Positions 37,059-53,761 of a stretch of DNA of 64,000 bases are shown piece after piece. The stretch covers positions 682,001-746,000 of the forward strand of contig NZ_CP083692.1 in NCBI RefSeq assembly GCF_020096995.1, written 5' to 3'. The stretch is from Leucobacter sp. Psy1. Lineage in GTDB: Bacteria > Actinomycetota > Actinomycetes > Actinomycetales > Microbacteriaceae. Within the stretch, counting starts at the first letter, position 1. Each line of letters opens with the position of its first letter. Position numbers and translations under genes: made by a program. The notes under the pieces are model-generated. The model was not told the DNA's origin. It did no database searches and worked only from the letters and a program-made list of their open reading frames with translations.

Positions 37059-38825
37059 CTACTCCGGGTCGACGATCGAGAGCAGCAGGTGTCCGTTGGA
37101 CACCGTCTGCCCGATCGGCGCATCGATGCCGGTGACGACACCGTCGCGGTGGGCATAGATGGACTGCTCCATCTTCATCGCCTCGAGCACCGCGACGAGT
37201 TCGCCGTTCTCCACGCTCTGCCCCTCTTCAACCGCGACCTTGACGACGGTCGCCTGCATCGGAGCGGTGACAGAATCGCCGCCCTTGCCCGCGACCGCGG
37301 CGGTCTGGGCGCGGCGGGGGGCAGGGCCCCGCGTGATGTCCTGATCCGCGATCGGCACGAGGGTGGCGGGCATGACGACCTCGAGACGTCGGCCGGCGAC
37401 CTCGACGACCACGGAGCGGACCTTCTGGTCCTGCGTGGGCTGGGCGATCTGCCCTTCCCACGGCTCGATATCGTTCACGAATTCGTTCTCGATCCAGAGC
37501 GTGTACACGCCGAACGCGCCGTCCTCCGCGGTGAACGCGGGATCCCGCACGATCTTGCGGTGGAACGGGAGAACGGTCGGGAGACCCTGAATCTCGAACT
37601 CGTCGAGGGCACGACGCGAGCGCTCCAGCGCTTCTTCGCGGGTCCTGCCGGTCACGATGAGCTTGCCGAGCATCGAGTCGAAGGCGCCGGAGACGACGTC
37701 TCCAGAGGCGACACCCGTGTCGACGCGCACCCCGGGGCCAGAGGCCGGTTTGAAGAGCGCGACCGGACCGGGGGCCGGGAGGAATCCGTTGCCCGGATCC
37801 TCACCGTTGAGACGGAACTCGAAGGAGTGCCCGTGCGCTTCGGGATCTTCGTAGTCGATCGTCCCGCCCGCAGCGATGCGGAACTGCTCGCGGACCAGAT
37901 CGAGCCCCGTGACCTCCTCGGAGACGGGGTGCTCGACCTGCAGTCGCGTGTTCACCTCCAGGAAGGACACCGTGCCGTCCTGGGCCACGAGGAACTCGCA
38001 GGTGCCCGCGCCGACGTATCCGACCTCGCGCAGGATCGCCTTGGACGCGCGGTAGAGCTCGGTGCGCTGCTCGTCGGTCAGGAACGGCGCCGGGGCCTCC
38101 TCGACGAGCTTCTGGTGGCGCCGCTGAAGGGAGCAGTCGCGGGTCGATACGACCACCACGTTGCCGTGCTGGTCGGCGAGGCACTGCGTCTCGACGTGAC
38201 GCGGCTTCTCGAGGTACTTCTCGACGAAGCACTCACCGCGCCCGAATGCTGCGACGGCCTCGCGAGTGGCCGATTCGAAGAGTTCGGCGATCTCGTCTCG
38301 CTCGTACGCGACCTTGAGGCCGCGGCCGCCGCCCCCGAATGCCGCCTTGATCGCGACGGGCAGGCCGTACTCGTCGGCGAACGCGATGACCTCGTCGGCG
38401 CCGGAGACCGGGTCGCTCGTTCCCGCTGCGAGCGGGGCGTCGACCTTCTCGGCGACGTGCCGTGCCGACACCTTGTCGCCCAGTCGCTCGATGGCGTCGG
38501 GTCCCGGTCCGATCCAGGTCATGCCCGCGGCGATGACCGCGCGCGCGAAGTCGGCGTTCTCGGCCAAGAAGCCGTAACCGGGGTGCACCGCGTCGGCGCC
38601 CGAGCGCCGAGCGGCCCCCAGCACTTTCTCGATGGAGAGGTAGGTCTCGGCGCTCGTCGTGCCGTTCAGGGAGTAGGCCTCGTCGGCGAGCTGGGAGTGG
38701 AGCGCATCGCGATCCTGATCGGCGTAGATCGCGACCGACGCGATGCCGTTGTCTTTCGCGGCTCGGATGATGCGGACGGCGATCTCGCCTCGGTTGGCGA
38801 TGAGCACTTTACGGATGCGCGACAT
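37059..38825 (-). CDS. accBC: Acyl-CoA carboxylase alpha subunit (biotin carboxylase plus biotin carboxyl carrier)
   Basis: This subunit carboxylates biotin with ATP and bicarbonate and carries the carboxylated biotin to the beta subunit. It has 588 residues: the biotin carboxylase N-terminus ([20 protein letters not shown]), the ATP-grasp glycine loop [17 protein letters not shown], catalytic [20 protein letters not shown], and a C-terminal carrier domain with the biotinylated lysine in [16 protein letters not shown]. The ATG at 38825 has no ribosome binding site but has TATGCT seven nt upstream, indicating a leaderless mRNA. It is divergent from maoC, and its partner accD lies at 51178-52794. 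Confidence 0.95.
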
Positions 38826-38832
38826 GACCACC

Positions 38833-38838
38833 AGCATA
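38833..38838 (-). promoter_or_regulatory. -10 hexamer of leaderless accBC
   Basis: TATGCT lies seven nt upstream of the accBC ATG, so transcription would begin at the start codon. No -35 consensus is present at the expected position (38856-38861), but the element at 38863-38889 lies immediately upstream and may replace it. Confidence 0.55.
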
Positions 38839-38862
38839 TGGGAGGGAGTGGGCGGAATCTTG

Positions 38863-38889
38863 GAGGAGACGTACAAACCTCGGCGGGAA
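38863..38889. promoter_or_regulatory. 27-nt element shared with the accD/birA region (copy 1)
   Basis: The sequence begins GAGGAGAC, continues with TnCAAA and ends CGGGAA. It is identical at 20 of 27 ungapped positions to 52832-52858. In both places it begins exactly 38 bp from the start codon of the leaderless carboxylase gene, just beyond the -35 position. This suggests a binding site for a regulator coordinating the carboxylase subunits. Confidence 0.65.
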
Positions 38890-38951
38890 TCGTTGCCGGA
38901 GTCCACATATGGGGGTGCTCGGCGATGCGTCGCGTCGCGTGCGTCGAAGAC

Positions 38952-38963: not shown

Positions 38964-39428
38964 GTGGTGAATCCAGATATTCAAGGCCGGACGTACCCGC
39001 CGACCGCTCCCTATCTCGTGGGGCGCGAGAAAGTGCGCGAGTTCGCGCGGGCCGTGCTGAGCTCTGCTTCCGTCAATCTCGACCCCGAAGCCGCTCGCGC
39101 GGCGGGCTACTCGGACGTCGTCGCGCCGCCGACCTTCCCGGTCGTTGTCCAGGAGGCGACGCTCGCCCAGCTGCTCGCCGACGACGACGCGGGAGTCGAC
39201 TTCTCTCGGGTGGTCCACGGAGACCAGCGGTTCACCTACTCGCGACCCGTCGTCGCCGGAGACGAGCTCACCGCGACGCTGACGATCACCGCGGTGAAGC
39301 AGCTCGGGGGCCATTCCATGGTCACCGCATCGAGCGAGATCGTGGACGCCGCTGGTGACCACGTGGTCACGGCCGTGTCGACGCTCGTCGTGCGCGCGGC
39401 GGAGGATGAGCAGGGAGGCGCCGCATGA
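38964..39428 (+). CDS. FAS1-type/MaoC N-terminal dehydratase subunit
   Basis: This 154-residue hotdog-fold protein resembles the FAS1-like dehydratase subunits HadA/HadC of actinobacteria, which pair with a catalytic MaoC subunit to dehydrate 3-hydroxyacyl intermediates. The start region ([20 protein letters not shown]), [18 protein letters not shown] and [20 protein letters not shown] are family features. The catalytic Asp/His pair is supplied by the next gene, which it overlaps by 4 bp. It begins GTG-GTG behind a TAGACT hexamer, so it appears leaderless. It is divergent from accBC. Confidence 0.87.
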
Positions 39429-50863: not shown

Positions 50864-51181
50864 TCAACTGTCGAGGAGATCGTCGATGCCCTCGGGTACG
50901 CGCTGGGAGCGCGCCCACGGCTCGCGGTCGCGTCGCGCGACCCACTTCACCTGGCGGGTCTCGTCGGATCGGGCGGCGGTGAGCACCGCGATCACGGCGG
51001 CGCGCTCCTCGTCGCTGACGTTCCGCGTCACGAAGCGGATGTCGTCGCCGTGGAGCGCGTCGTCGACGTCACCCAGGCTCTCGCGCTTCGCGGCGTCGCG
51101 CGCCGCGGCGTCCGGCGGCAGCTCGGATTCGGCGAGGGCGTCGCCCTCGCGCGGATCCTCATCGACGCGTGCGTGCTTCAC
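50864..51181 (-). CDS. accE: Acyl-CoA carboxylase epsilon subunit
   Basis: This is a small accessory subunit (105 residues) that stimulates actinobacterial acyl-CoA carboxylases. The N-terminal half is acidic and probably disordered. The C-terminal half has the epsilon pattern [20 protein letters not shown], then a short tail with [10 protein letters not shown]. The GTG overlaps the accD stop as GTGA, the standard gene order for this subunit. Sequence conservation in the family is low, so position carries much of the weight. Confidence 0.82.
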
Positions 51182-52794
51182 AGCGGGATGTTCCCGTGCT
51201 TCTTCGCGGGCTGCTCGGTGCGCTTGCCGCGGAGACCGCGAAGCGCCTTGATGACTGCCAGGCGGCTGCCCGCCGGCTCGAGCACGTTGTCGAGTTCGCC
51301 GCGCTCGGCAGCGAGGAACGGGCTCGTCACGTCAGCGGTGTACTTCGCGGTGAGTTCGGCGCGCAGCGCCTCCACGTCCTCACCACGCTCGGCCGCGGCA
51401 GCGAGTTCTTTGCGGTACAGAATGTTGACGGCACCCGCGCCGCCCATGACGGCGATCTCCGCGGTGGGCCACGCGATGTTGAAGTCGGCGCCCATCTGCT
51501 TCGACCCCATGACGATGTATGCGCCGCCGTAGGCCTTGCGTGTGATGATCGTCACGAGCGGGACCGTCGCCTCGGCGTAGGCGTACAGCAGTTTCGCGCC
51601 TCGGCGGATGACGCCCTGGAACTCCTGGTCGGTGCCCGGCAGGTAGCCCGGCACGTCGACGAGCGTGAGGATCGGGATTGAGAACGAGTCGCAGAACCGT
51701 ACGAAGCGCGCGGCCTTCTCGCTCGCGTCGATGTTGAGCGTGCCCGCCATCTGCGCCGGCTGGTTCGCGACGATGCCGACGGTGCGGCCCTCGACGCGGC
51801 CGAAGCCGATCACCATGTTGGGGGCGAAGAGGGGCTGCACCTCGAGGAACTCGCCCGAGTCGAGGATGCCCTCGATGACGGCCTTCATGTCGTAGGGCTG
51901 ATTCGGGCTGTCTGGGATGACCGAGTTGAGCTTGCGGTCGGCATCGGTAATCTCGAGGGCCGTGTCGCTGTCGTAGACCGGCAGCTCCGCGAGATTGTTG
52001 TCGGGGAGGTAGCTGATGAGTGCGCGCGCGTAGTCGAGGGCATCGTGCTCATCGCTCGCGAGGTAGTGGGAGACGCCGCTCGTCTGGTTGTGGGTGAGCG
52101 CGCCACCGAGCTCCTCGAACCCGACCTCCTCGCCCGTGACGGTCTTGATGACGTCGGGGCCGGTGACGAACATGTGGCTCGTCTTGTCGACCATGATGAC
52201 GAAGTCGGTGAGTGCGGGGGAGTAGACCGCACCACCGGCAGAGGGGCCCATGACGATTGAGATCTGCGGGATGACGCCGGAGCACATGGTGTTGAGCCGG
52301 AAGATCTTGGCGTAGTTGCTGAGCGCGACGACGCCCTCCTGGATGCGGGCGCCGCCCGAATCGAGGATGCCGAGGAGGGGAGCGCCGGTCTTCAGCGCGA
52401 ACTCCATCGCCTTCACGATCTTCTCGCCGGCGACCTCGCCGAGCGACCCGCCGAACGTCGTGAAGTCTTGGGAGTAGACGACGACCTGGCGGCCGTGGAT
52501 CGTGCCGGCACCGGTGACGACCGAGTCGCCGAACGGCCGGCTCGCGTCCATGCCGAACGACTGCGTGCGGTGCTTCACGTACTTGTCGAACTCGACGAAG
52601 GAGCCGGGGTCGAGCAGCTCGGCGAGGCGCTCACGTGCGGTCATCTTGCCGCGCGGATGCTGCTTCGCGGCTGCCGCGGTGTCACGGTCGCCGACGGCCT
52701 CCTGATACTTGCGGCGGTGGTCGGCGATTCGGCCGGCCGTGGTCGCGAGAGCGTCGGGGCTGGGGGCGTGCGTGGTCGCTTCTTCTGCAGTCAC
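51178..52794 (-). CDS. accD: Acyl-CoA carboxylase beta subunit (carboxyltransferase)
   Basis: This subunit transfers the carboxyl group from biotin to acetyl- or propionyl-CoA. It has 538 residues from the GTG at 52794 ([10 protein letters not shown]). Carboxyltransferase motifs are [98 protein letters not shown] and [18 protein letters not shown]. The acyl chain preference is not certain. TAGGCT seven nt before the GTG and the lack of a ribosome binding site suggest a leaderless transcript. It is divergent from birA, whose product biotinylates AccBC. Confidence 0.95.
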
Positions 52795-52801
52795 AGAGGC
52801 C

Positions 52802-52807
52802 AGCCTA
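52802..52807 (-). promoter_or_regulatory. -10 hexamer of leaderless accD
   Basis: TAGGCT seven nt upstream of the GTG start at 52794. There is no consensus -35 at 52825-52830, but the shared 27-nt element begins at 52832. Confidence 0.55.
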
Positions 52808-52831
52808 CCGCGGGGTGGGACGCTCGCGTGT

Positions 52832-52858
52832 GAGGAGACCTCCAAAGGTTCCCGGGAA
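52832..52858. promoter_or_regulatory. 27-nt element shared with the accBC/maoC region (copy 2), within a palindromic site
   Basis: Matches 38863-38889 at 20 of 27 positions at the same 38-bp distance from the carboxylase start. Here the element is part of a larger symmetric site (52835-52874): TTCCCGGGAA is a perfect centre and GAGACCTCC/GGAGGTTCTC form outer arms with one extra base. It lies between the divergent accD and birA starts. Confidence 0.65.
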
Positions 52859-52906: not shown

Positions 52907-53761
52907 ATGGATCTTCCACGTACGCGTGCTCTGCTTCCGGTCGTCGAGTGGCGCGACAGCGTCGGCAGCACGAACGCGGTACTGCGCGAGCGCGTCGCCG
53001 CGGAGCCCGCCCTGCCCCACGGCACGCTCATCGCGACCGCCGAGCAGACGGCGGGGCGCGGGCGCGCGGGGCGGGGGTGGGAACTTCCGCCCGGAAAAGC
53101 CGTCGCGGCGTCGATCCTGCTGAGGAACGTTTCCGCCTTCCCACTCGGCCCAGGCTGGCTTCCGCTTATCGCCGGTTCTGCGGTGACCGCGGCGCTGCAG
53201 TCGTACTTCACCGTCGCCGACGACGATTCCGGCCGTGAACCGCGGCGCGTGGTCGTGAAGTGGCCGAACGACGTGCACGTGCGCACCGCAGCGGACGCCC
53301 AGGCCGACCGGCCGGGGCTGAAGCTATGCGGGATTCTGTGCGAGCTGCTGCCCGACGGTTCGGTGATCGTCGGCACGGGGATCAATCTGCTGCTCGAGCC
53401 GGACGAGCTCCCGACCGAGCGCGCCACGTCTCTGCTCGCCGCGGGCGCCGCGGTGGACGGTGCGCAGTTGATCGCGGATGACGATGCCGCGGGAGCAGCG
53501 CTCGTCGACGATGTGCTCGCCGACACGGAGGAGGAGCTGCTGCGTCTGGTCCAGCTCGCCGTCGAGGATCCGGCCGCGGTGCGTGCGCGGATCCTGCGCG
53601 ATTCGGCGACCGTCGGTGCAGAGGTCCGCGTGCACCTCCCCGGGGATCGCATCGTCGACGGGCGGGCGCGCACCCTCGCCGACGACGGTGCGCTCGTCGT
53701 CGATCTGCCGACCGGCGGCGAGCTCACCGTGAACGCCGGAGACGTCGAGCACCTGCGCTGA
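52907..53761 (+). CDS. birA: Biotin-[acetyl-CoA-carboxylase] ligase
   Basis: This enzyme activates biotin to biotinyl-AMP and attaches it to the carrier lysine of AccBC. It has 284 residues. The catalytic domain has VEWRDSVGSTNAVLRERVA, the biotin loop QTAGRGRAGRGWELPPGKA, VVKWPNDVHV with the catalytic lysine, and GILCELLPDGSVIVGTGINL. The N-terminal DNA-binding helix-turn-helix of E. coli BirA is absent, so it is a group I ligase and cannot itself bind the nearby palindrome in that way. A C-terminal SH3-like domain follows (GDRIVDGRARTLADDGALVV). Confidence 0.94.
   Translation: MDLPRTRALLPVVEWRDSVGSTNAVLRERVAAEPALPHGTLIATAEQTAGRGRAGRGWELPPGKAVAASILLRNVSAFPLGPGWLPLIAGSAVTAALQSYFTVADDDSGREPRRVVVKWPNDVHVRTAADAQADRPGLKLCGILCELLPDGSVIVGTGINLLLEPDELPTERATSLLAAGAAVDGAQLIADDDAAGAALVDDVLADTEEELLRLVQLAVEDPAAVRARILRDSATVGAEVRVHLPGDRIVDGRARTLADDGALVVDLPTGGELTVNAGDVEHLR

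Follow-up and report, generated by a model that had tools for sequence, protein, structure and literature searches.

Acetyl-CoA carboxylase carries out the committed step of fatty-acid synthesis. FasR of Streptomyces coelicolor reportedly belongs to the PucR family of regulators, as described by Arabolaza et al. 2010. This protein, an orthologue of the mycobacterial regulator MabR (Rv2242), induces the fasII genes via repeats located at about -67 that are highly similar to the MabR recognition sequence TTTTGT-N9-ACAAAA (PMC5541348). Binding of MabR was assayed on the 23-mer GTTTTGTTGGTTATATACAAAAA, and its N-terminal domain, seen in the structure 9fb1, is described as globin-like (PMC11617747). 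The mycobacterial fasII operon under MabR includes accD6, so a link between such a regulator and a carboxylase subunit is not new (PMC11617747).

Joint control of both carboxylase subunits is also already known, by an unrelated protein in Corynebacterium glutamicum: its FasR is one regulator for accBC and accD1, as we propose here for accBC and accD, but it is a repressor of the TetR family (PMC6460773). AccR of Shewanella oneidensis is alike in being a dedicated activator of an acetyl-CoA carboxylase gene, and differs in being a LysR-family protein whose target is one multidomain gene, accS (PMC11602165). The same paper, from 2024, describes regulators dedicated to the transcription of acetyl-CoA carboxylase genes as still elusive, the confirmed regulators at some acc operons being TetR-family proteins, two of them in actinobacteria (PMC11602165).

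We analysed a 64-kb stretch of DNA, hereafter the window, corresponding to G000:C1:682001-746000 of the 3.25-Mb genome of Leucobacter sp. Psy1 (labelled G000). A first-pass annotation had described a 27-nt element shared by the accBC/maoC and accD/birA divergent promoters and had proposed a common regulator. The genes and elements concerned are as follows.

37059..38825, minus strand: accBC, biotin carboxylase/biotin carrier subunit, 588 aa (from the translation; Pfam biotin carboxylase and Biotin_lipoyl)
38833..38838, minus strand: -10 hexamer TATGCT of accBC, 7 nt before the ATG, with similar hexamers in relatives; presumed leaderless start
38858..38878, minus strand: proximal predicted operator of accBC, GTTTGTACGTCTCCTCCAAGA, at -53 to -33 before the ATG
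38863..38889, no strand assigned: 27-mer at accBC, GAGGAGACGTACAAACCTCGGCGGGAA, overlapping the operator without its CAAGA end
38891..38911, minus strand: possible distal accBC site, CATATGTGGACTCCGGCAACG, 33 bp upstream of the proximal one, with only the CAACG half good
38964..39428, plus strand: maoC-like dehydratase gene, divergent from accBC (from the translation; Pfam FAS1_DH_region), with its own TAGACT 6 nt before the GTG
51178..52794, minus strand: accD, carboxyltransferase subunit, 538 aa (from the translation; Pfam Carboxyl_trans)
52802..52807, minus strand: -10 hexamer TAGGCT of accD, 7 nt before the GTG; presumed leaderless start
52827..52847, minus strand: proximal, degenerate predicted operator of accD, CTTTGGAGGTCTCCTCACACG, at -53 to -33 before the GTG
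52832..52858, no strand assigned: 27-mer at accD, GAGGAGACCTCCAAAGGTTCCCGGGAA, overlapping the operator without its outer end
52907..53761, plus strand: birA, biotin-protein ligase, divergent from accD, with its own TAGGCT 6 nt before the ATG

As had been noted, both carboxylase genes combine a TANNNT hexamer at a 7-nt gap (TATGCT at accBC, TAGGCT at accD) with the lack of a -35 box. A TANNNT hexamer lies 5-8 nt before a candidate start in 78 of the 80 accD loci that we compared. The starts of maoC (38964) and birA (52907) are likewise preceded by TANNNT at 6 nt, so that all four genes of both regions look leaderless.

The two 27-mers agree at 20 of 27 ungapped positions (38863-38889 against 52832-52858), and each begins 38 bp from a start codon, at 38825 for accBC (ATG) and 52794 for accD (GTG), exactly as first reported. 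The probability of at least 20 identities in one pair of 27-mers at the base composition of the window is 1.0e-6. By arithmetic, equally good matches are expected somewhere among all pairs of 27-mers in the 64-kb window; for two linked promoters compared in a single fixed register, a 20/27 match is not chance. A pattern derived from the two 27-mers, with at most 3 mismatches, has 2 matches in the window versus 0 in shuffles and 2 in the 3.25-Mb genome versus 0 for the reversed control, a test that is partly circular because the pattern was built from those two sites.

The literal 27-mer had to be rejected as what is conserved. When accBC and accD are compared at the same register within each of five other Leucobacter species, they agree at only 6-10 of 27 positions, and across 330 cross comparisons the mean is 8.7 and the maximum 14. 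The 27-mer as such is, by these comparisons, particular to Leucobacter sp. Psy1. Its boundaries were drawn wrongly too, as it overlaps a 21-bp dyad but cuts off half of it, leaving out the CAA half-site.

The conserved unit is this 21-bp dyad, which resembles TTTTGT-N9-ACAAAA. Most of the Microbacteriaceae examined have it at both accBC and accD, 53-56 nt ahead of the gene; in the window both sites lie in the same register. One Leucobacter accBC example reads GTTTGT-GCCTTATAT-CCAAGG, and outside Leucobacter the consensus is TTTTTGT-N9-CCAAA at accBC and TTGTAGG-N-A-N-CC-N2-CAACG at accD. The half-site spacing is the same as that of the MabR operator in the mycobacterial fasII promoter, whose TTATAT spacer also occurs in several Leucobacter accBC sites. 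The accBC site of the window agrees with the published motif in 9 of 12 letters, a level attained by 6 of the window's 127,960 21-mers, and ranks first among 127,956 positions with matrices from other genera, be they trained on accBC, on accD or on both. The accD site is a poor copy, with only 5 of the 12 letters; its rank is 4 by the accD matrix, 16 by the combined matrix and 133 by the accBC matrix (again among 127,956 positions and with training on other genera). It is possible that accD depends less on the dyad in Leucobacter sp. Psy1.

To survey the family we used the upstream regions of accBC in 30 Leucobacter loci and 57 family genomes (mostly one per genus), of 80 accD loci, and of fabD in 30 Leucobacter and 30 family loci. 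The published 12-letter motif was taken from Mycobacterium and is independent of the present data. When it is placed along the 135 nt upstream of accBC, its best position falls at 51-55 nt in 44 of the 53 genomes that carry the regulator gene described below, with 9-11 of the 12 letters present in 37 of those 44; four of the nine exceptions have an uncertain accBC start codon. The raw motif is weak at many accD loci, so trained matrices were needed. These were built outside Leucobacter from 45 accBC sites in 51 regulator-bearing genomes and from 56 accD sites out of 67, leaving out sites that were cut or below the letter threshold; 2 of the 80 accD loci were dropped for want of a recognised start. 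Because the published motif served to pick the training 23-mers at the register where they were expected, training was not done blind, but the cross-gene test was.

Counting as a hit a score above 5 in the register 50-57 nt before the start, and comparing it with seven control bins, we found that the accD-trained matrix recovers 47 of 53 accBC promoters of regulator-bearing genomes against 0-2 in the control bins, as well as 29 of 30 Leucobacter accBC loci. In the reverse direction, with the accBC-trained matrix, 43 of the 67 non-Leucobacter accD promoters are hits, and each of the seven control bins has 0. The 6 regulator-bearing genomes (of 53) in which no accBC site was found in register include four with an uncertain start codon. 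That the two promoters resemble each other by chance in one species, with no regulatory role, is barely credible: the poor agreement of the literal 27-mer in the five other Leucobacter species would fit such a coincidence, but across the family the dyad keeps its register, and the sites of one gene predict those of the other. Chance is refuted for accBC, and is a possible reading for the accD copy of Leucobacter sp. Psy1 taken alone.

Given its fixed place relative to the -10 box, the dyad might also be a general promoter element of leaderless Microbacteriaceae genes, such as an unusual -35 or upstream element. We give this reading an almost negligible probability. The 80 accD loci contain 78 further starts of the leaderless type, of which only 4 score; identified by their place, these belong to two birA genes, one accBC and one accD, the last having a different start. 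Of 5 other leaderless-type starts within the window, 0 score. As detailed below, the element is also absent at accBC in all four genomes that could be scored among those without the regulator.

The first-pass annotation had named two findings that would refute its element: lack of conservation in related genomes, or equally many matches at random places. By this test the dyad stands, while the literal 27-mer fails for lack of conservation. The outcome of pattern searches depends on the pattern and the genome. With at most 1 mismatch, TTTGT-N5-ATATCCAA-N-G has 32 matches in 31 Leucobacter genomes, 28 of them at the accBC promoter, versus 2 for the reversed control; our own genome is absent from these 28 because its spacer has diverged. 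The looser TTTGT-N10-CAA-N-G with 2 mismatches was discarded, with 24 matches in the window versus a shuffle mean of 37; its two matches in L121 both lie outside the fabD promoter. The strict pattern TTTTTGT-N9-CCAAA is specific in GC-rich genomes, where accBC is the sole match in G057, G050, G064 and G034; in small AT-rich genomes it occurs no more often than when reversed. The accD-type pattern, allowing 2 mismatches, was rejected as not specific (42 matches in 60 genomes versus about 40 for the reversed control); several of these matches are at accD and one stands before fabD.

At the level of the order, accBC was found in 42 of 59 genomes, and 29 loci besides our own were scored with the 12-letter motif. 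In the three Microbacteriaceae loci among them the site lies at 52-53 nt. For the 26 accBC loci of other families, with starts set automatically, the best match never falls at 50-57 nt; five of them reach at least 8 of 12 letters elsewhere, at 58 nt (overlapping a TAGACT hexamer), at 111 nt and, in three loci of one family, at 113-114 nt. From these comparisons the wiring looks like a family trait of the Microbacteriaceae. The three loci of one other family (L259, L260 and L264) carry dyads such as CGTTGTGGGGATCCCACAAAC 113-114 nt before accBC, possibly an independent gain.

In our genome five genes lie above the HTH_30 cut-off. The best of them, P0005, encodes a protein of 400 aa and is located outside the window.

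G000:C1:1616897-1618096, minus strand: P0005, PucR-family regulator, directly upstream of fabD-fabH-acpP-fabF

P0005 matches the crystal structures of MabR, 9fb1 at residues 9-136 and 9f80 at residues 136-386, and has the Pfam domains PF13556 and PF17853. It shows the MabR architecture of an N-terminal domain, a GGDEF-like domain and a PucR C-terminal HTH, in which HPNTVRYRLK is identical to MabR. Like MabR, it is a PucR-type regulator encoded upstream of fabD. Judged by sequence and architecture, P0005 is a full-length orthologue of Mycobacterium MabR and S. coelicolor FasR; operator and regulator are both of a known kind. Of 30 family fabD loci, 26 have the regulator gene upstream of fabD within 1.5 kb; in one of these it is matched only in part, at the locus edge. 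At G045:C1:39609-40856 the match to the regulator is in two pieces, which may reflect an insertion or a frameshift.

A FasR-like TetR protein had been suggested as the regulator, and the TetR-type FasR of C. glutamicum does act on accBC and accD1 through fasO motifs (PMC6460773). We consider a regulator of the C. glutamicum or M. tuberculosis TetR type extremely unlikely here. The sites have the operator sequence and spacing of MabR and S. coelicolor FasR, they are predicted by the published PucR operator, and the accBC site goes with a PucR gene that stands upstream of fabD. By eye, the 25-mer TACCCGTACGTAGAACTCGCCAGTA, given in PMC7382501 as bound by the TetR-type FasR of M. tuberculosis, has no TTTTGT-N9-ACAAAA dyad.

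Five of 60 family genomes lack P0005 at a threshold of E 1e-20 (G035, G042, G044, G067 and G075). These genomes measure 0.9-2.0 Mb; two of the five are in many contigs, and absence is less sure in G042 (82 % complete) and G067 (about 420 contigs). An accBC site scoring above 5 in register is present in 0 of the 4 regulator-less genomes that could be scored versus 47 of 53 regulator-bearing ones (P = 4e-4, or P = 0.003 with G042 left out), and the best accBC score anywhere in the 135 nt differs likewise between the two groups (P = 1e-5); the sample is small and the losses may not be independent. The regulator-less G035 keeps a weak accBC trace of 3.1 at 53 nt. At accD, two of three readable regulator-less genomes have no site and G035 has an AT-rich match at 58 nt, with 4 of 9 regulator-bearing genomes scoring proximally. 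By eye, the gene end found upstream of fabD in G075 and G067 looks like that of a pyruvate dehydrogenase E1 gene. The pyruvate dehydrogenase E1 gene of our own genome lies just beyond the regulator.

It is conceivable that a different protein with a similar recognition sequence occupies the site, for instance one of the four other HTH_30 proteins that pass the cut-off in G000. We regard this as very unlikely, considering that P0005 is the full-length MabR orthologue beside fabD and that the accBC site is missing where P0005 is missing.

BirA itself had been set aside as the regulator on the grounds that it lacks a DNA-binding domain, and Pfam indeed shows only the catalytic and C-terminal biotin-ligase domains. 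Taken together, the sequence comparisons support control of accBC and accD by one common trans-acting protein distinct from BirA, at a site just upstream of the -35-less promoters. They do not support the birA gene as a necessary part of the arrangement. In a search reaching up to 3 kb upstream of accD (less at L083 and L104), birA was found in 63 of 80 loci, divergent or near and mostly close by, and was not found in 17, which include 3 Leucobacter and 8 Microbacterium; all 8 Microbacterium keep the dyad at 53 nt. In relatives maoC is often further from accBC. The divergent genes were rejected as the reason for the site. In L090 and L067, where accD and birA stand close together, birA too has a similar dyad 50-57 nt ahead of its start, and one site could serve both directions. 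Such sequences suggest that birA may be co-regulated in some species.

Many promoters of the family have a second site 33 bp further upstream. At the corresponding distance of 83-90 nt before accBC, 16 of 53 family promoters score above 5 versus 0-2 in the control bins, while only 2 of 30 Leucobacter promoters do so. The distal accBC site of the window has a low score, with rank 483 by the combined matrix; by eye, many Leucobacter accBC promoters show a CAACG half 17 nt upstream of GTTTGT. Among Leucobacter accD promoters 6 of 11 score above 5 distally versus 2 of 11 proximally. The closest AccD relatives of our protein come from 11 loci with 88-94 % identity, Leucobacter apart from one MAG.

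At fabD, the classical target, 13 of 30 family loci score above 5 at the proximal place and 17 of 30 at the distal one (controls 0-1); in Leucobacter the figures are 0 of 30 and 10 of 30. The fabD promoter of our own genome is weak: its best site comes 8th of 23,958 by the accD matrix, 23rd by the combined one and 59th by the accBC one. By these scores the predicted operator at fabD is present for the family as a whole and weak in our own genome.

From these observations we hypothesize that the element described in the first-pass annotation is part of an operator through which an activator, the PucR-family orthologue of MabR and FasR, adds acetyl-CoA carboxylase to the FAS II regulon; on the sequence evidence this is likely. 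A dimer of the regulator would bind the 21-bp dyad, whose centre lies about 43 nt before the start codon. Transcription would start at the start codon itself, as the TANNNT hexamer 7 nt before the codon suggests, and with this start the dyad would overlap the -35 region missing from both promoters, the position of a class II activator. In the many promoters with a second site, that site lies about three helical turns upstream. Binding at accBC, accD and fabD would match the supply of malonyl-CoA to FAS II, and the signal is probably acyl-CoAs, by analogy with reports on MabR.

We infer activation from the position of the site and from what has been reported on how MabR and FasR act; binding, ligand and transcription start are likewise predicted. 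The same regulator and site could instead repress accBC and accD, or switch between repression and activation depending on acyl-CoA. MabR was first described as a repressor (PMC11617747, PMC5541348), a site overlapping the -35 region can block RNA polymerase, and the unrelated TetR-type FasR of C. glutamicum represses accBC and accD1 (PMC6460773). We think this unlikely: MabR has since been interpreted as an activator, activation is also the action of S. coelicolor FasR (PMC5541348), and promoters with no recognisable -35 box and a fixed adjacent site suggest dependence on an activator.

Activation of accBC and accD by this PucR-type protein would differ from the described systems in its targets and in its geometry. 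MabR acts at the fasII promoter at -87/-147, whereas here the sites belong to separate accBC and accD promoters and are centred about 43 nt before the presumed leaderless start. Our literature searches found no report of S. coelicolor FasR acting on acetyl-CoA carboxylase genes. Among the open-licence papers that our searches brought up, no title or abstract beginning names a PucR-type regulator of accBC or accD in Microbacteriaceae, and in those searches we did not meet separate accBC and accD targets, a fixed leaderless class II place or wiring across a whole family.

We think it probable that in an ancestor of the Microbacteriaceae a PucR-type regulator of FAS II came, by rewiring, to activate acetyl-CoA carboxylase directly. 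Its operators would hold fixed positions before the leaderless promoters of accBC and accD, often as tandem pairs spaced 33 bp apart, and a single acyl-CoA sensor would then set both the supply and the use of malonyl-CoA. For a large bacterial family, comparative evidence thus names a regulator, a site and a register. The close resemblance of this site to the one used by a known fatty-acid regulator of Mycobacterium and Streptomyces suggests that a single protein turns on the first step and the rest of the fatty-acid pathway. If true, the reach of the MabR/FasR family would extend beyond the fasII operon to the provision of that operon's substrate.
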